Shown: one piece after another, positions 11,927 to 19,779 of the stretch
Layout: every line of letters starts with the position of its first letter
Position numbering within the stretch: position 1 is the stretch's first letter
IMG/VR virus record: IMGVR_UViG_3300031957_001651
Span: 1-64,000 of that record
Source of the DNA: a virus
Direction: 5' to 3' (one strand)
Length of the DNA stretch: 64,000 bases
Notes under the pieces: model-generated
Database searches by the model: none
What the model was told of the DNA's origin: nothing
What the model saw: the letters and a program-made list of their open reading frames with translations, nothing else
Made by a program: the position numbers and the translations under genes

Positions 11927-12196
11927 ATGTATATCGTAGTAATTGATGGAGAAGAAGATAGAGGTGCATATTCTGTAGCAGATGATAATGGTGAAAATGT
12001 TCTATACATCTGGGAAAATGACGATGATGTGGAACGTTTTATTATGATGCTAGAAGAAAGTGGTGCTCCAAAAATGAGATCTGTTGAAGTCGAAGAAGAT
12101 TTATTATTTGAAACATGTAGTCAACATGGTTACATGTATGCTATTATTGGTAGTGATGAGTTAGTAGTTCCACCTGAAGAACATGATTTATTTTAA
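11927..12196 (+). CDS. DUF3110-like protein between genes 47 and 46
   Basis: An 89-residue acidic protein starting MYIVVIDGEEDRGAYSV and containing VLYIWENDDDVERFIMMLEE. The pattern (N-terminal strand, an F/W-E-x-x-D-D-A/V-x-R-F helix with LEE, a later strand near a C-terminal VPP) matches DUF3110, a small ferredoxin-like fold family common in cyanobacteria. Function unknown. It overlaps the gene 46 start by 14 nt, so it is co-translated with the 46/47 nuclease. The family call is from memory of the pattern. Confidence 0.72.
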   Translation: MYIVVIDGEEDRGAYSVADDNGENVLYIWENDDDVERFIMMLEESGAPKMRSVEVEEDLLFETCSQHGYMYAIIGSDELVVPPEEHDLF

Positions 12197-13898
12197 GAAG
12201 ATTGGTTGGAAAAATTTTCTTTCAACGGGCAACCAATACACAGAAGTCCAACTTGATGAATGTAAAAACAGTATAATTATTGGTACTAATGGTGCAGGTA
12301 AGTCAACTATTCTTGATGCACTGACTTTTGTCTTGTTTGGAAAGTCATTTCGCAAAATTAATAAACCTCAACTTATTAACTCTACGAACGAGAAAGATTG
12401 TGTTGTAAATATTGATTTTACAATTGGATCTGTAGACTGGAGAATTGTTCGTGGAATTAAACCAAATATCTTTGAGATTTATAGAGATGGAACACCTCTA
12501 GATCAAGCAGCATCTGTTAATGATCAGCAGAAGTATCTTGAGCAAAGCATTCTCAAGATGAATTATAAATCATTCACTCAGATCGTAATACTTGGAAGTA
12601 GTAACTTTACACCATTTATGCAATTACCTGCTGCAGGTAGACGTGAAGTTATTGAGGATATTCTTGATATAAAAGTTTTTTCTACAATGAATAATATCAT
12701 TAAAGATCAACTTAGGAGATATAGGGAAGATGTTAAAGTATTAAATCTAAAGAAAGAATCTTTTACTGATAAAGTTAGAATGCAAGAAAACTTTATTAAT
12801 GAACTTGATAATCGTGGTAAGGATGTAATTAATAAGTATAACAATAAAATTTCTCAACTTAATAATGATATTGGGATTCTTAATAGAGACAATTCTATAT
12901 TTGAAGAAGACGTGTTTCGTTATACGAAAGAACTTGAAAGTGTTCAAGATGCGAAAAGTAAAGTTCGTAAACTTGGAAACCTGAAGGGTAAAATCTCACA
13001 GAAAATGGATACCATTAAACGTGAGCAAAATTTCTTTTCGGATAATCTTACATGTCCTACGTGTGAGCAAACTATAGAAGAGTCTTTTCGTGTTAAAAGA
13101 CTTAAAAATACTGATAATAAACTAAATGAATTGGAGAATGGATATGATCAACTTATTGAAACTATCAAGTCTGAAGAATTTCGGGAGACAATTTTTGACA
13201 ACATTTCAAAATCTATTATGGAGTCCCAAAGTAAAATTAGTTCCAATAGTGCAAAGATCTCGTCACTACAAAGTCAAGTAACTAGTCTAAATTTTGAGAT
13301 TAACACTTTAAATGATCAGTCAGCAAATAAGACTGAAGAAAAAGAAAAGTTAAACTCATATAAAGATAATCTTGAAACCGTATTTGATGATCTCAGTGAG
13401 AATAGAGATAAAATTATTAGACATGATTTTCTTCATGAACTTCTGAAAGATAGTGGAGTCAAGTCTAAAATCATTGAAAAGTATCTTCCACTCATAAATC
13501 AGCAAGTGTCTAAGTATCTTCAGATGATGGAGTTTTATATTAACTTCAAACTTGATGAAGAATTTAATGAAACGATAGAATCACCAATTCATGAAGATTT
13601 TTCTTATTCTTCATTCTCTGAAGGTGAGAAGCAACGTATTGACTTGGCACTATTATTCACTTGGAGAGAAGTTGCTAAGATTAAAAACTCTACTAGCACT
13701 AATCTTTTGATTATGGATGAAATCTTTGATTCATCTCTTGATGGATTTGGAACGGATGAGTTTCTTAAAATTATTCGATTTGTTATTAAAGATGCCAACA
13801 TCTTTGTTATTTCTCACAAAGAATCTCTTCATGATAAGTTTGATCGTGTTATCAAATTTGAGAAGAGAAAGAATTTTTCACAGATAGTTGAATCATGA
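12183..13898 (+). CDS. gp46: Recombination nuclease subunit gp46 (Rad50/SbcC-like)
   Basis: A 571-residue SMC-like ATPase: Walker A GTNGAGKST (34-42), a coiled-coil arm, the zinc-hook CPTC (291-294) where two molecules dimerise, a second coiled coil, then the ABC signature SFSEGEKQRIDLAL and Walker B LLIMDEIFDSSLD. It partners gp47 in end resection. Length equals T4 gp46 (560). Its stop overlaps the sulfotransferase start. Confidence 0.97.
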   Translation: MIYFKKIGWKNFLSTGNQYTEVQLDECKNSIIIGTNGAGKSTILDALTFVLFGKSFRKINKPQLINSTNEKDCVVNIDFTIGSVDWRIVRGIKPNIFEIYRDGTPLDQAASVNDQQKYLEQSILKMNYKSFTQIVILGSSNFTPFMQLPAAGRREVIEDILDIKVFSTMNNIIKDQLRRYREDVKVLNLKKESFTDKVRMQENFINELDNRGKDVINKYNNKISQLNNDIGILNRDNSIFEEDVFRYTKELESVQDAKSKVRKLGNLKGKISQKMDTIKREQNFFSDNLTCPTCEQTIEESFRVKRLKNTDNKLNELENGYDQLIETIKSEEFRETIFDNISKSIMESQSKISSNSAKISSLQSQVTSLNFEINTLNDQSANKTEEKEKLNSYKDNLETVFDDLSENRDKIIRHDFLHELLKDSGVKSKIIEKYLPLINQQVSKYLQMMEFYINFKLDEEFNETIESPIHEDFSYSSFSEGEKQRIDLALLFTWREVAKIKNSTSTNLLIMDEIFDSSLDGFGTDEFLKIIRFVIKDANIFVISHKESLHDKFDRVIKFEKRKNFSQIVES

Positions 13899-14740
13899 AA
13901 TTTGTAACTCTAGCAGGATTGCCTAGAAGTGGAACTACACTATTGGGAAATCTTTTGCAGCAGCACCCAGACATTACTGTTGAGATGGACTCTTGTCTCT
14001 CAGATATTTTAACAAATATATCCCAACATTCTGAGAAAGTTTATACTGAGACTCAGCATACCATGAAAGATATGAAGATTTTATATAAATCTTTTATGAG
14101 AGCAGGTATATCTTCTTGGTTAGAGAATTTATGCTATACTAATATCTACGTTGATAAAGATAGAAGTTGGGCAGTAGATTTTGATTTACTTTTTAATCTT
14201 GTTCCCTCCGCCAAAGTAATATTTGTTGTTAGGGATCTCCGTGGTGTAATTTCTTCCATGGAGAAGATGGAAACTGAAAATAGAATTATGGGACCATCTA
14301 CACCAGAACTTTATCCTTTTGATTCTAGAGAAGATTACCATCAAGTTGATTTGATGGATAAGAGAATAGAGTCTTATATGCAGATGGATATGATTTATAC
14401 TCCACTATTTGCACTGAAAGAAATCTTAGATTGTGAAAGAAAATATTTGAAGAATTTTAAGTTTGTTAAATATGAGGATTTTATTGAACATCCTCAAAAA
14501 ACATTATCTGAAATTTATATGTTCATTGATGCAGATCATCATAGTAATGATTTGGATAATGTGGAGCAAGGGCATTTCAACGATTCAATATATGCACCTT
14601 GGGGTGATCATACGATACGTCCTAAGGTAGTTTCTAAAAAAGAAACATACGAGTTTCCGTTGATAAAACGGAAATCTCAACATAAAATATTGAGAGATTA
14701 CTCTTGGTATTATCAATTTCTATATCCAAATCTAAAATAA
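13895..14740 (+). CDS. PAPS-dependent sulfotransferase-like protein
   Basis: A 281-residue protein with both PAPS-binding signatures of sulfotransferases: the 5'-phosphosulfate loop AGLPRSGTTLLGNLL (7-21) and the 3'-phosphate motif VIFVVRDLRGVISSM with R113 and S120. Such enzymes move a sulfuryl group from PAPS to hydroxyls of carbohydrates, lipids or proteins. The acceptor cannot be read from the sequence; given the glycan genes elsewhere in this phage, a sugar is plausible. No signal peptide, so cytoplasmic. The start overlaps the gene 46 stop (ATGA), which makes it an add-on to the recombination operon. Confidence 0.82.
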   Translation: MKFVTLAGLPRSGTTLLGNLLQQHPDITVEMDSCLSDILTNISQHSEKVYTETQHTMKDMKILYKSFMRAGISSWLENLCYTNIYVDKDRSWAVDFDLLFNLVPSAKVIFVVRDLRGVISSMEKMETENRIMGPSTPELYPFDSREDYHQVDLMDKRIESYMQMDMIYTPLFALKEILDCERKYLKNFKFVKYEDFIEHPQKTLSEIYMFIDADHHSNDLDNVEQGHFNDSIYAPWGDHTIRPKVVSKKETYEFPLIKRKSQHKILRDYSWYYQFLYPNLK

Positions 14741-14753
14741 TACGAACTATAAA

Positions 14754-15074
14754 ATGCCAAAAAGAACAAGAAAATCTAAAGTCCTTGCGAGAATGCAATG
14801 GTTGACCAATTATAAAACTGGAAAACCTTGTCAAGATTGTGGAAATACATATGATCCAATTTGTATGGATTTTCATCATGAGCAACCAGAATTGAAAAAA
14901 GATGAAATCCGTATGTTACTCCGAGACGGGTACTCTATGGATATTGTCCAAGCAGAAATTGATAAATGTGTCTTGATCTGTTCTAATTGTCATAGACTTA
15001 GACACAAGAACGATCCTGTGACGGTTCATAAACTGGTACAGAAATCGAAGTCGAAGGCTGTATTGCCTTTATAA
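14754..15074 (+). CDS. HNH-type nuclease-like zinc protein
   Basis: A 106-residue basic protein with paired zinc ligands CQDCG (26-30) and CSNCHR (76-81), a central DFHH (39-42) and H84. This arrangement (CxxC...DxHH...CxxCHxxxH) is an HNH/treble-clef nuclease fold, where the DFHH histidines would be metal- and water-binding. It may be a free-standing mobile endonuclease or a packaging or repair nuclease. It stands alone between the sulfotransferase and the VWA gene. Confidence 0.75.
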   Translation: MPKRTRKSKVLARMQWLTNYKTGKPCQDCGNTYDPICMDFHHEQPELKKDEIRMLLRDGYSMDIVQAEIDKCVLICSNCHRLRHKNDPVTVHKLVQKSKSKAVLPL

Positions 15075-15098: not shown

Positions 15099-17234
15099 AT
15101 GTCCATCAACTTTGAAGTGAAGAGTCAACTTGCCAAACTTCTTGCTACGGAAGATTTGATTGTTGAGCATCGTCATGTTGAGACTGCAATGTTCAATGTA
15201 CACACTCGGGTTCTGACACTTCCTATGTGGAAGAAAGCATCTGAGTGTGTTTTTGATATGTTGGTTGCCCACGAAGTTGGACATGCCCTCTTTACTCCCG
15301 ATGAATGGGATTGGGATACTCCTAAACAGTTTGTCAATGTTGTGGAAGATGCCCGAATTGAGAAACTTATGAAACGCAAGTATGCTGGACTTGCTAAAAC
15401 ATTTTATCGTGGTTACGAGGAACTTTCTGAGGAAGATTTCTTTGCACTAGAGAACGAAAATATTCCTTCAATGAATCTTGCAGATCGTGCAAACCTTTGG
15501 TTTAAAATTGGTAATTTTGTCAACATTCCTATTCAGAGAGGAAAGGAGATGGAAATTATCAATATGATTGCTGATTGTGAAACCTTTGCTGATGTTCTGA
15601 TTGTTGCCGAAGAACTATACAACTTTTGTAAGAAAAATCAAGAGGAAAACCTGAGTGAGGTTTCACTTGCTCCTACTCAAGGATCTTCGAGTTCTTCTGA
15701 AAATCAAAATACTTCTGAGTCTAGTGATGGTGAACTAGACACAGAATCAACTGAGTCTTCTGAAGGTGAATCTGGTGAAGATTCAATGCCAGAGATTGAA
15801 TCACCATCTTCTGGTGGTGGATCTTCTAGTCTTGAGGTAAAAACTGCCGAGAATCTTGAAGATTCTATTAGTGATCTCATTGATGATCGTGGAGCAGATA
15901 ATCCATATAGTGAACTAACTTATTTAAATATTCCAGATTTAGATTTAAAAACAGTAATTTCATCTAATTCTGACATTCATGATCACATCAATACATTTTG
16001 GTCTAATTATGAAAATGATGGTGGAGACCTACGTCATTTTGATTGGGCAGACATTTCATACACAGACTTTAAAAAATCAGCACAGAAAGAAGTAAACTAT
16101 CTCGTCAAAGAATTTGAATGCCGCAAGTCTGCTGCTGCATATTCTCGTGCTTCTGTATCTAAGACTGGTGTTCTTGATACTGCTAAGTTACACACTTACA
16201 AGTATAATGAAGATCTTTTCAGGAAAGTAACTGTTCTTCCTGATGGCAAGAATCATGGTCTTCTATTTGTTCTTGACTGGTCTGGTTCTATGGGAACCGT
16301 GATGCTTGATACTATGAAGCAACTGTTTAATCTAATTTGGTTCTGCCGTAAGGTATCAATTCCGTTTGATGTTTATGCATTTACTAATGATTTTAGATGT
16401 GGAAATTATGATAGTATGGGAAAACTAATTTACCCAGAACCTCATTATGAAAAGGAGGATGGATTACTTCAAGTTTCTGATGTATTCTCGATGATGAATA
16501 TTCTTACTAGTAACGTAAGTAATCGTATTCTTGATAAGCAAATGCATACTATGTTCCGAATTGCATTTGCACAAACTAAATATGTTGGTTATCCAGTTCC
16601 TATTCGTGTGGGTCTATCTGGTACTCCTTTAAATGAAGCACTCATTTCTCTTCATAATATTATTCCCACCTTTAAGAAACAATACTCTCTTGAAAAAGTT
16701 CAGTGCATTGTTCTTACTGATGGTGAGGCAGGACCATTAAATCGTCATGTTGCTGTTGAGTATCCAAATCAAGAAAAACGAATTGGAACTGCACGTCTCA
16801 ATGCCAATTGCTATATTCGTGATCGTAAGATTGGTACAACTTACAAAGTCACTAATTATCACGAATCAGCATACGTTTCATTTACTAATTTAATGTTAAC
16901 TAATCTTAAGGATAGTTTTCCAAATACGAATTTTGTAGGTATTCGTGTCCTTTCAAAAGGTGATTCTGGATCTTTCATTCGTCTTCATGGAAGTTCTTGG
17001 GAAGAAATTGAATCTATGAAAATTAAATGGAAGAAAGAACGTTGCGTCATGATTAAAAATTCTGGTTATGATACTTATATTGGACTTGCTAGTTCTGATT
17101 TATCCAACCAAACAGACTTTGAAGTAGATGATGGTGCAACAAAGGCAAAGATCAAATCTGCTTTTGTCAAGTCTTTGAAAACTAAGAAGTCCAATAAAAA
17201 AGTTTTGAATGAGTTTGTTTCATTGATTGCATGA
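15099..17234 (+). CDS. Metallopeptidase-VWA fusion protein (partner of the CobS/MoxR ATPase)
   Basis: A 711-residue protein with two recognisable parts. Near the N-terminus, AHEVGHALF holds the zinc-peptidase motif HExxH (58-62), with VVEDARIE about 25 residues later supplying a candidate third ligand (E83). A Ser/Glu-rich acidic linker (~185-250) follows. The C-terminal half has a von Willebrand A domain with MIDAS motif DWSGS (393-397). This resembles CobT-like proteins, which pair with CobS ATPases. Here the next large gene is such an ATPase. The peptidase motif suggests the pair remodels or cleaves a protein rather than making cobalamin. A TATAAT (15070-15075) without a good -35 stands upstream. 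Confidence 0.85.
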   Translation: MSINFEVKSQLAKLLATEDLIVEHRHVETAMFNVHTRVLTLPMWKKASECVFDMLVAHEVGHALFTPDEWDWDTPKQFVNVVEDARIEKLMKRKYAGLAKTFYRGYEELSEEDFFALENENIPSMNLADRANLWFKIGNFVNIPIQRGKEMEIINMIADCETFADVLIVAEELYNFCKKNQEENLSEVSLAPTQGSSSSSENQNTSESSDGELDTESTESSEGESGEDSMPEIESPSSGGGSSSLEVKTAENLEDSISDLIDDRGADNPYSELTYLNIPDLDLKTVISSNSDIHDHINTFWSNYENDGGDLRHFDWADISYTDFKKSAQKEVNYLVKEFECRKSAAAYSRASVSKTGVLDTAKLHTYKYNEDLFRKVTVLPDGKNHGLLFVLDWSGSMGTVMLDTMKQLFNLIWFCRKVSIPFDVYAFTNDFRCGNYDSMGKLIYPEPHYEKEDGLLQVSDVFSMMNILTSNVSNRILDKQMHTMFRIAFAQTKYVGYPVPIRVGLSGTPLNEALISLHNIIPTFKKQYSLEKVQCIVLTDGEAGPLNRHVAVEYPNQEKRIGTARLNANCYIRDRKIGTTYKVTNYHESAYVSFTNLMLTNLKDSFPNTNFVGIRVLSKGDSGSFIRLHGSSWEEIESMKIKWKKERCVMIKNSGYDTYIGLASSDLSNQTDFEVDDGATKAKIKSAFVKSLKTKKSNKKVLNEFVSLIA

Positions 17235-17398
17235 CTAAGAGATCTTGTCCTTATTGTGGTAAATTTGACACACTCTGTGCTGATGTCACTAGTCTTTCTA
17301 GGGCATGGGCACGGAGTGCTTGCATGTTAAAACATAAAGGAATACCACTTTCTAAACTGTCCTCTGATGACGAAACTGACCAGAGTTCTATACTATAA
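17231..17398 (+). CDS. Tiny zinc-knuckle protein between the VWA and MoxR genes
   Basis: A 55-residue ORF whose start overlaps the VWA stop (ATGA). It begins MTKRSCPYCGKFDTLC, with four cysteines (6, 9, 16, 31) able to bind zinc, then a helix SRAWARSACMLKHKG. The coupling and its place inside the VWA-MoxR pair suggest it is part of the same module. No family recognised. Confidence 0.6.
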   Translation: MTKRSCPYCGKFDTLCADVTSLSRAWARSACMLKHKGIPLSKLSSDDETDQSSIL

Positions 17399-17421
17399 TA
17401 ACTTCAGTTCAAACGAAACGC

Positions 17422-18525
17422 ATGTCCATGTCTCCAGAATACGTTGTCACTTCACTTCAAGCACTTTACGGTAACAATGTCACTTCTTCTGATATTCGTG
17501 CTTGGTGTGCAATGAATGATGCTAACTATCAGACTGTTACCAATAAACTATCCGATCATAAGATTGGTCGTGGAAAGTGGAATCTTGAAGCAACTCAACA
17601 AAAGGTGGAAGAAATTGAACGCACTTATCAGGCACCTCCTGCGATGCCTGCTGTAGAACAAAACCTTATTCCTGAAAAAGATGATACCTTCGTCCAGTTT
17701 GGCAATTTCAGTGATGTTAAAAAAATTATTAAGTCCCGTCTGTTTTATCCAACGTTCATCACAGGACTTTCTGGAAACGGTAAAACGTTCTCGGTTGAGC
17801 AGGCATGTGCTCAACTTGGTAGAGAACTAATCCGAGTAAACATTACTATCGAGACTGATGAGGATGATCTTATTGGTGGTTTTCGACTTATTGATGGAAA
17901 CACCGTCTGGCACAATGGCCCAGTCATTGAAGCACTTGAACGAGGTGCTGTACTTCTCCTTGACGAAATCGACCTGGCATCTAATAAAATTTTGTGTCTT
18001 CAATCCATTCTAGAAGGTAAGGGTGTCTTCCTTAAGAAGATTGGAAAGGTTATTAAACCTGCTGAAGGATTTCAAGTAGTTGCTACTGCTAATACTAAAG
18101 GTAAGGGTTCTGATGACGGTCGTTTTATCGGCACAAATGTCCTCAACGAAGCCTTCCTAGAACGATTCCCTGTAACCTTTGAGCAGGCATATCCTTCTCC
18201 TACAAGTGAAGCAAAGATTCTTTCTAAGGTTGCCCATACTCTTAATGTTGATGATGATAACTTCTTGTCTCGTTTAGTCGATTGGGCTGACATTATCCGC
18301 AAGACCTTCTATGATGGTGGTATTGATGAGGTGATCAGCACCCGTCGTTTAGTGCATATCATTCGTGCTTATAGTATCTTTGATAATAAAGAAAAGGCAA
18401 TTGATGTATGTACTGCACGATTTGATGATGAGACCAAGCAGTCATTTATTGAACTTTATGATAAGATTGATGCCGACTTTGAAATGACATCTGATGATGA
18501 ACTTGACTCTGAACCCAATTTCTGA
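17422..18525 (+). CDS. cobS: MoxR/CobS-type AAA+ ATPase
   Basis: A 367-residue AAA+ protein: Walker A GLSGNGKTF, Walker B LLLDEIDLAS, sensor 1 VVATANT and arginine-finger region LERFPVTFEQ. T4-like cyanophages almost always carry it, usually annotated cobS (cobaltochelatase subunit), although the phages lack the rest of the cobalamin pathway. The N-terminal ~90 residues are a separate helical domain (YVVTSLQALYGNNVTSSDIRAW). Pairing with the VWA-peptidase upstream is the classic MoxR-VWA arrangement, where the ATPase acts as a chaperone on metal- or cofactor-binding targets. The enzymatic target is unknown. Confidence 0.9.
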   Translation: MSMSPEYVVTSLQALYGNNVTSSDIRAWCAMNDANYQTVTNKLSDHKIGRGKWNLEATQQKVEEIERTYQAPPAMPAVEQNLIPEKDDTFVQFGNFSDVKKIIKSRLFYPTFITGLSGNGKTFSVEQACAQLGRELIRVNITIETDEDDLIGGFRLIDGNTVWHNGPVIEALERGAVLLLDEIDLASNKILCLQSILEGKGVFLKKIGKVIKPAEGFQVVATANTKGKGSDDGRFIGTNVLNEAFLERFPVTFEQAYPSPTSEAKILSKVAHTLNVDDDNFLSRLVDWADIIRKTFYDGGIDEVISTRRLVHIIRAYSIFDNKEKAIDVCTARFDDETKQSFIELYDKIDADFEMTSDDELDSEPNF

Positions 18526-18545: not shown

Positions 18546-19124
18546 ATGACTAATTCTTGGAGTTTGCTTTACGACAAAATGTATGGATCTAGTGAAGAAC
18601 AAATGGACTACTTTAACCATGATGGTCGTCCTCTAGCAGACGACCGACCAATTCTTGAAGAAGATTATCTCGACTTTGGGAATACTCTCAATATCAATGC
18701 GCCGATTTCATCTATGAGTGACGATACAATTTCATTTAATACGGAGGATAATATGCCTCCTTGGGGACACAGTGATATGGAAGCACTTGGTTCAATTGAC
18801 TTAAATCTTGAGTCTACTGCTAGAAATGGTTTCTGGAAGTATGAAGAAGACCTGACTATGATGGAGGTTCGTGAATACCTCTCAGGAACATACAGAGCAC
18901 ACTATACTTCTAAGGATTCTAAGACCCAAACTCTGGATCTGATTGAAAGTATTGGTGATGCAGAACCATTCTGCCGTTCTAATGCAATCAAATATCTTTC
19001 TCGTTTTGGTAAGAAGGGTGGAAAGTCTAAACAAGACATTCTAAAAGCAATTCATTATTGCGTCCTTCTCTACCATTTCTCTGGTCTACACAAGCAACCC
19101 AAAGGTGATTATGAAACTTTCTGA
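18546..19124 (+). CDS. DUF3310-like protein
   Basis: A 192-residue protein. The first ~110 residues are acidic and low in recognisable structure. The C-terminal part (DLIESIGDAEPFCRSNAIKY then LSRFGKKGGKSKQDILKAIHY) follows the DUF3310 pattern found in many phages, where a helix ending in NAIKYLxRxxxK is followed by a second helix with KAxxYL. DUF3310 has no proven biochemical role. It overlaps the gene 45 start by 14 nt, so it is translated with the sliding clamp. Confidence 0.75.
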   Translation: MTNSWSLLYDKMYGSSEEQMDYFNHDGRPLADDRPILEEDYLDFGNTLNINAPISSMSDDTISFNTEDNMPPWGHSDMEALGSIDLNLESTARNGFWKYEEDLTMMEVREYLSGTYRAHYTSKDSKTQTLDLIESIGDAEPFCRSNAIKYLSRFGKKGGKSKQDILKAIHYCVLLYHFSGLHKQPKGDYETF

Positions 19125-19779
19125 TTCAACTGTTAATATTCTCAAAAACTTTTCTAATATTAACCAGTCTCTTCTCTTCAAAGAAGGAAAGAAACTCCGT
19201 ACTATCAGTGTGATGAAGAATATTCTTGCTGAGGTTGAAGTAAATGAAGACTTTCCCAAAGACTTTGGCATTTATGATCTTAACCAGTTTCTTAATGGTC
19301 TGAGTCTGCACCAGAGTCCTGAACTTGACATTGAGAATGATTCTTACATGGTTATCCGTGAAGGTAAGATGCGTTCTAAGTACTTCTTTGCTGATCCCAA
19401 TGTGATTATCAGTCCTCCTGAGAAAGATATTATTCTGACTTCTGAAGAAATCTCTTTTGATCTCAATACTCAGCAACTGGACAAACTTCTTAAGGCATCT
19501 GCTGTATATCAACTTCCAGATCTATCTGTTGTTGGTGAGAATGGTGTTGTCAAGTTAGTTGTATCTGATCGTAAGAATGATACTTCTAATGATTTCTCAA
19601 TCATTGTTGGTGAGACTGAGAATATTTTTAGTTTCAACTTCAAGGTAGAAAACATCAAGATTCTTCCTGGTAGTTATCAAGTTTCTATCTCTAAGAAACT
19701 TCTTTCTAAGTTTGTCAACTCTGATAAAAACCTGACCTATTGGATTGCCCTAGAACCAGATTCGTCTTATGAGGACTAA
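19111..19779 (+). CDS. gp45: Sliding clamp (gp45)
   Basis: A 222-residue trimeric DNA polymerase clamp, matching T4 gp45 (228). It begins MKLSDSTVNILKNFSNINQS, a hallmark of gp45, and ends in a strand-rich domain (LPGSYQVSISKKLLSKFV). I chose ATG 19111 rather than the upstream GTG because AAGG of a Shine-Dalgarno lies just before it. Besides replication, gp45 activates late transcription with gp33 and gp55. The 3' end overlaps the oxygenase gene at 19769. Confidence 0.95.
   Translation: MKLSDSTVNILKNFSNINQSLLFKEGKKLRTISVMKNILAEVEVNEDFPKDFGIYDLNQFLNGLSLHQSPELDIENDSYMVIREGKMRSKYFFADPNVIISPPEKDIILTSEEISFDLNTQQLDKLLKASAVYQLPDLSVVGENGVVKLVVSDRKNDTSNDFSIIVGETENIFSFNFKVENIKILPGSYQVSISKKLLSKFVNSDKNLTYWIALEPDSSYED

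Follow-up and report, generated by a model that had tools for sequence, protein, structure and literature searches.

Background

Several reports bear on a gene pair of T4-like cyanophages that encodes a protein with a von Willebrand factor A (VWA) domain and, after it, a MoxR-class AAA+ ATPase commonly called cobS. The pair is analysed here in a window of 64,000 nucleotides, positions 1 to 64,000 of the IMG/VR virus record IMGVR_UViG_3300031957_001651 (91.8 kb in all), whose gene order is that of a T4-like cyanophage. The two genes are the very ones listed as T4-GC146 'peptidase' and T4-GC150 'cobS' by Sullivan et al. (2010; PMC3037559), where cobS is counted as a cyanophage core gene; the accessible part of that paper reads cobS as a gene of cobalamin biosynthesis and does not connect the ATPase with the site in the peptidase. 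A chaperone/protease made of MoxR and a metallopeptidase-vWA protein has been proposed for the group 2.2 jumbo phages, cyanophages and Ochrobactrum phage OC being assigned to group 2.1 in the same grouping (Iyer et al., 2021; PMC7824862). The opposite view has been taken by Liu et al. (2021; PMC8651126), who deem the 'peptidase' label of cyanophages mistaken. The core gene cobS, often cited as a B12 auxiliary metabolic gene of cyanophages, is also in use as a marker of communities (PMC9983427), and it still appears under vitamin B12 synthesis in recent ecology papers. We read the gene pair instead as an ATP-driven metalloprotease of the MoxR-VWA class that remodels proteins, and put the probability of this reading at roughly 0.6.

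Domains and conserved sites of the pair

This reading draws on computed results: the domain make-up, the conserved sites, the pairing of the genes and the class of fold. The features of the two genes, all on the plus strand, are the following.

15099 to 17234, plus strand: peptidase-VWA protein of 711 residues (PHROG 459 'peptidase', E = 9e-252)
15099 to 15656, plus strand: predicted N-terminal zincin (gluzincin-like metallopeptidase) domain, residues 1-186 (AlphaFold2 fold and PDB matches)
15270 to 15284, plus strand: HExxH zinc/catalytic motif HEVGH, residues 58-62 (invariant in 89/89 loci and 48/48 aligned N-domains)
15345 to 15362, plus strand: EDARIE helix, residues 83-88, with the candidate third zinc ligand E83 (N80, E83, D84 and R86 invariant; the helix follows the HExxH helix in the model)
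15657 to 15827, plus strand: acidic Ser-rich linker, residues 187-243, predicted to be disordered (predicted local distance difference test, pLDDT, <50 over 186-243)
16248 to 17048, plus strand: VWA domain with a complete metal ion-dependent adhesion site (MIDAS), D393, S395, S397 (DWSGS), T509 and D541 (the five residues invariant in 45 sequences)
16743 to 16847, plus strand: beta-hairpin insertion after the last MIDAS residue, a candidate pore 'finger' (model strands 549-583; role suggested by NorD, PMC13036017)
17422 to 18525, plus strand: MoxR-class AAA+ ATPase 'cobS' of 367 residues (Pfam AAA_5, E = 4e-18; PHROG 249 'porphyrin biosynthesis', E = 2e-138)
17764 to 17787, plus strand: Walker A GLSGNGKT, residues 115-122 (G115, G118, G120 and K121 invariant)
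17953 to 17973, plus strand: Walker B LLLDEID, residues 178-184 (L178, L180, D181, E182 and D184 invariant)
18163 to 18165, plus strand: candidate arginine finger R248 (NEAFLER; invariant, the function taken from what is known of AAA+ proteins)

An earlier note, made from the letters of this stretch, had described the VWA protein as having an HExxH site, a downstream Glu and a MIDAS, and all three are present. In the ATPase, Walker A, Walker B, sensor 1 and the arginine finger are all intact.

Conservation of the zinc site

A search of phage records yielded homologues of the VWA protein in 463 records, nearly all from cyanophages, the others being Pelagibacter phages and single Stenotrophomonas, Pseudoalteromonas and Ochrobactrum phages. 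The HExxH motif occurs in 89 of 89 full-length proteins of viral or phage loci and in all 20 metagenome-derived homologues with a readable N-terminus, when about 0.03 such motifs are expected from composition in a protein of 711 residues. The earlier note had staked its claim on the conservation of this motif in cyanophage homologues, and it is conserved in every one examined. Among 48 diverse homologues, down to 21% identity to the window protein, H58, E59, H62 and E83 all fall within the 14 invariant columns of the 192 N-domain columns (P ~2e-5 for random placement), and E59, the general base position, is kept as strictly as the zinc-ligand positions H58, H62 and E83. The codons of all four residues vary synonymously, so selection, and not recent descent, has kept the residues the same. 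As judged from these alignments, the putative zinc site is under strong selection. In the metagenome-assembled genome metaG-MbCM1 (L088:2998-6463), the peptidase is annotated in three pieces and cobS in two, probably owing to frameshifts.

Predicted fold

Neither Pfam nor the PDB yielded a significant match when searched directly with the sequence of the VWA protein. Residues 1-192 are predicted confidently by AlphaFold2 to adopt a zincin fold (pLDDT 90.3; predicted template modelling score 0.85). In the model, HExxH lies on the helix 49-65 and E83 on the next helix, 76-94, as in a gluzincin. The structure prediction proposed in the earlier note thus supports a zincin fold of the N-domain. A blind fold search of the PDB with the N-domain model gave ArdC, selecase, jannalysin, abylysin and PprI as top matches, and matches 1-11 are all metallopeptidases or IrrE/PprI, with E-values of 0.04-0.4. 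Because these E-values are individually modest, the assignment to the zincin fold rests on the agreement among the matches together with the invariant motif. In the viral structure library BFVD, the N-domain matches cyanophage relatives, phage metallopeptidase proteins, phage 'CobT' proteins and a protein of the archaeal virus HHTV-2, for which a split cobT has been reported (Liu et al., 2021; PMC8651126). A PDB search with the full-length model ranks the NorQD complex first (E 2.5e-4) and human MDN1-MIDAS third (E 8e-4).

Proposed mechanism and a non-proteolytic alternative

The AAA+ protein ('cobS') would form a ring, on which one VWA protein would dock via its VWA domain, probably by inserting the beta-hairpin finger into the pore. 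The metal of the MIDAS would grip an acidic residue of a target protein, and ATP turnover would shift the VWA domain relative to the N-domain via the disordered acidic linker. For NorQD, a VWA finger has been shown in the AAA+ pore, and an ATP-driven twist of the VWA domain against the N-domain across the linker is supported (PMC13036017, PMC9976466). Because the layout here is NorQD-like with a peptidase as the N-domain, the MIDAS-held target would presumably be pulled or twisted past the zinc site, where the N-domain, acting as a zinc peptidase of the gluzincin type with H58, H62 and E83 as its ligands and E59 as its general base, would cut the target presented to it. It is in zinc binding, proteolysis, ring geometry, timing and target that this scheme goes beyond what was computed.

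Some points weigh against the scheme. The zinc site could serve for binding instead of catalysis. Two Nickievirus phages and the Stenotrophomonas phage BUCTxx99 have lost HExxH yet keep the pair, and cleavage is therefore dispensable in some relatives. The PDB E-values of the N-domain are modest, the best being 0.04, and the position of the genes on the replication side, described below, is only suggestive.

If the zinc site were structural or a metal carrier, the pair would act as a non-proteolytic remodelling or metal-insertion chaperone in the manner of NorQD. MoxR-VWA pairs are known to take part in target remodelling and metal insertion (PMC13036017), no PDB entry matches the full-length model better than the NorQD complex, and HExxH is missing in some related phage members and in all cellular members examined. 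We nevertheless regard such a chaperone as unlikely, since the general-base position E59 varies no more than the ligands do even between very divergent sequences, a strictness for which a purely structural site gives no reason.

Genomic setting and virion assembly

The earlier note placed the CobS-like ATPase in one module with the VWA protein, and this holds generally: of the 73 loci whose sequence runs on for at least 1.5 kb past the VWA gene, every one has the ATPase gene following it. The two genes are found in equal numbers of phage records (365 Synechococcus, 61 cyanophage and 24 Prochlorococcus), their co-occurrence being judged by these equal counts, with a check at the level of the record for the T4-like phage ME01 only, which has neither the VWA gene nor the ATPase gene. 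For comparison, gp46 is present in 376 Synechococcus records versus 365 for each gene of the pair.

In the window, the interval from gp46 (12183-13898) to gp45 (19105-19779) encodes a sulfotransferase, an HNH protein, the VWA protein, a 55-residue protein, the AAA+ protein and a DUF3310 protein. Cyanophages and the Ochrobactrum phage likewise have gp46/47 on the upstream side of the pair and gp45 on its downstream side. In other phages, CobT/CobS-like pairs adjoin genes for DNA ligase, DNA polymerase III alpha, primase or DnaB. This constant position by recombination and replication genes suggests that the pair acts in the replication or takeover phase and is not a virion component.

In a rival reading, which follows the proposal for the group 2.2 jumbo phages, the pair would be a virion-assembly chaperone and maturation protease acting on structural proteins (Iyer et al., 2021). 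The domain architecture is the same as that described there, and a MoxR-vWA pair of an archaeal virus has been reported to be needed for tail assembly, as cited in that paper (PMC7824862). The cyanophage genes, on the other hand, lie in a recombination/replication cluster and not among structural genes. A weak further point is that the account of the virion proteome of S-SCSM1, the closest sequenced relative (VWA protein 78% identical), names neither protein among the non-structural proteins found; 13 proteins of unknown function are unnamed in its text, and assembly factors need not stay in virions. A role in virion assembly is accordingly given a rather low chance.

The gap between gp46 and the VWA gene (13895-15074) holds the sulfotransferase and HNH endonuclease-like genes, both of which are also found in S-SCSM1 (L081), and P-SSM2 likewise has a PF01844 (HNH) protein in this gap. 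A scan for promoters and terminators gave background level only. In Staphylococcus and Listeria phages (L140:5716-7692, L146:4728-6680), ATPases annotated as AAA-family or 'porphyrin biosynthesis' have DUF7192 proteins with no recognisable VWA domain as their downstream neighbours, and these are probably another mislabelled pair of an ATPase and its partner.

Relation to cobaltochelatase

In the prevailing annotation, the phage CobS/CobT pair joins host CobN as cobaltochelatase subunits and raises cobalamin output (Liu et al., 2021). The phage ATPase is indeed a distant relative of CobS (TIGR01650, E = 8e-22), but its score of 77.9 bits is far under the family cut-off of 558.55 bits, which cellular CobS controls exceed (622 and 583 bits). 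The CobS_N domain (PF12556) was found in the cellular control only and not in the phage ATPase. In the ATPase tree, cellular CobS rows form one group (100/99 support) excluding the phage rows, with some long branches elsewhere. The VWA protein similarly fails the CobT family cut-offs, scoring 12.3 against 26.1 bits for PF06213 and matching neither TIGR01651 nor PF11775, when a cellular CobT control reaches 953 bits.

Cellular CobT was found in 41 of the 58 sampled alphaproteobacterial genomes. HExxH, present in every cyanophage homologue, is in none of the cellular CobT proteins inspected (twelve aligned and further divergent ones), and a search of the available literature returned no description of the CobT N-domain as a metallopeptidase. 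Compared directly, the profiles of the cyanophage VWA protein and cellular CobT match weakly (hhalign probability 6%), and the link between them is made through phage intermediates only. A Klebsiella phage protein (L144) that matches PF06213 (1.4e-22) and CobT_C (6.6e-100) keeps HEVGH and aligns to both profiles; for three such phage proteins (L141, L142 and L144), the match probability is 93-96% with the cyanophage profile and >99% with CobT. In the joint alignment, HExxH stands opposite a D-A-x-A-L-R stretch of CobT, and the Glu of EDxRIE is retained.

HExxH is kept in 10 of 13 CobT-like phage proteins. The phage proteins without it (L142:2340-4418, L153:2983-5067 and L152:2980-4965) have SEIAK, SEISK and REVST in its place, and they keep the MIDAS and a neighbouring ATPase. 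To judge from these sequences, the loss in Nickievirus and BUCTxx99 is an independent erosion of a putative peptidase site in phages. Cellular CobT in turn appears to contain an eroded protease domain; this is the simplest reading, with its direction taken from an unrooted tree.

As to the partner, CobN-family proteins are encoded by two cyanobacterial genomes, Prochlorococcus and Synechococcus, so one that the phage pair might hijack exists in cyanobacterial hosts. CobN is absent from 11 full phage records. Pelagibacter phages Mosig and HTVC008M carry the VWA-peptidase gene, Mosig having the pair, yet a CobN-family match was found in 0/79 genomes of one SAR11 family. The scope of that search depends on the SAR11 identity of genome G213, which we take to be SAR11 because it matches a 16S probe sequence exactly. 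With the cut-offs, the tree and the zinc site against it, and with CobN present in cyanobacterial hosts yet missing from the SAR11 family, a cobaltochelatase function of the phage pair is improbable. The earlier note's preference for ATP-driven remodelling or cleavage over a cobalamin role is better supported than the cobaltochelatase by HExxH, the zincin fold and the failed CobS/CobT cut-offs, but the idea was not new.

Twenty of the 41 CobT-positive alphaproteobacterial genomes have no CobN/ChlH-family match, although some genomes may be incomplete, and in the Caulobacter vibrioides control CobT was found and CobN was not. Cellular CobST may also do work that is independent of CobN. In Escherichia phage Cyrano (L151:2965-6404), the CobT-like gene is labelled 'dimethylbenzimidazole phosphoribosyltransferase' and the ATPase 'cobalamin synthetase'; both labels come from the use of the names CobT and CobS in enterobacteria, where they denote unrelated enzymes.

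A four-Cys protein between the genes

17231 to 17398, plus strand: four-Cys micro-protein of 55 residues (C6, C9, C16 and C31), with a 4-nt overlap (ATGA) with the VWA stop

This small protein had been taken by the earlier note as a third member of the module. Its four Cys and its length are as described, but it occurs in only 8 of the searched loci, all close relatives (the window, L001-L004, L006, L007 and L081), and the VWA stop is overlapped by other genes in S-SCSM1 and P-SSM2. Membership in the module was rejected because the protein does not extend beyond the nearest clade and because, in other phages, different genes produce the 4-nt overlap; it is lineage-specific and probably no part of the module. 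In S-PM2, Syn19 and S-H38, no gene is annotated between those for the VWA protein and the ATPase. In S-SCSM1 (L081:6133-6771), a gene for an S-adenosylmethionine-dependent methyltransferase lies between the VWA and micro-protein genes, and the gap evidently tolerates insertions.

Implications

Nearly all T4-like phages that infect marine cyanobacteria have the pair. It is possible, if somewhat short of an even chance, that the near-universal 'cobS' of cyanomyoviruses is the motor of an ATP-dependent metalloprotease with a target of the replication or takeover phase and not a B12 gene, and that such a protease, on losing its zinc site, gave rise to cellular CobT. If cobS is such a motor, statements on phage control of ocean B12 need correction, and a conserved phage machine becomes accessible to study. 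An eroded domain in cellular CobT would, in addition, account for how a cobaltochelatase subunit arose. The two published readings (PMC8651126 and PMC7824862) contradict each other, and the invariant zinc site offers a clean way to decide between them.

Comparison with known systems

Cellular CobS/CobT resembles the phage pair in combining an AAA+ ATPase with a VWA/MIDAS protein, with distant homology that includes the N-domain via the phage intermediates; it differs in that CobT lacks HExxH, that CobN is its partner and that the CobS_N and CobT_C signatures are missing from the phage pair. NorQ/NorD, CbbQ/CbbO and Midasin, the best solved-structure matches, share an AAA+ ring and a VWA/MIDAS protein, in NorD with an N-domain and a disordered linker, but have other targets, and the accessible part of the literature on them describes no metallopeptidase domain. 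Minigluzincins (abylysin, jannalysin and selecase), ArdC and IrrE/PprI share a zincin fold with HExxH but have no VWA fusion, and their PDB matches are at 8-14% identity with no significant E-value.

CobT-like proteins of Rhizobium phage RHEph10, SSU5-type, Roseobacter and Vibrio ICP2 phages have an HExxH N-domain and a VWA domain adjoining a MoxR-class ATPase, in most cases with DNA replication genes nearby; their VWA domain is closer to CobT (Pfam CobT_C in those scanned), and two sub-lineages lack HExxH. The pair of the group 2.2 jumbo phages (MoxR ASV44729.1, vWA ASV44728.2) shows the same adjacency, and its vWA protein has an N-terminal metallopeptidase, the likeness being one of described architecture; the cyanophage pair differs in sitting among replication genes. 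Thus the 'peptidase' label is old, and the idea of a peptidase-VWA protein working with MoxR was proposed in 2021 for other jumbo phages. What is added here are the tests of conservation, of fold and of the link to CobT, and this evidence favours the view of the pair as a remodelling protease.

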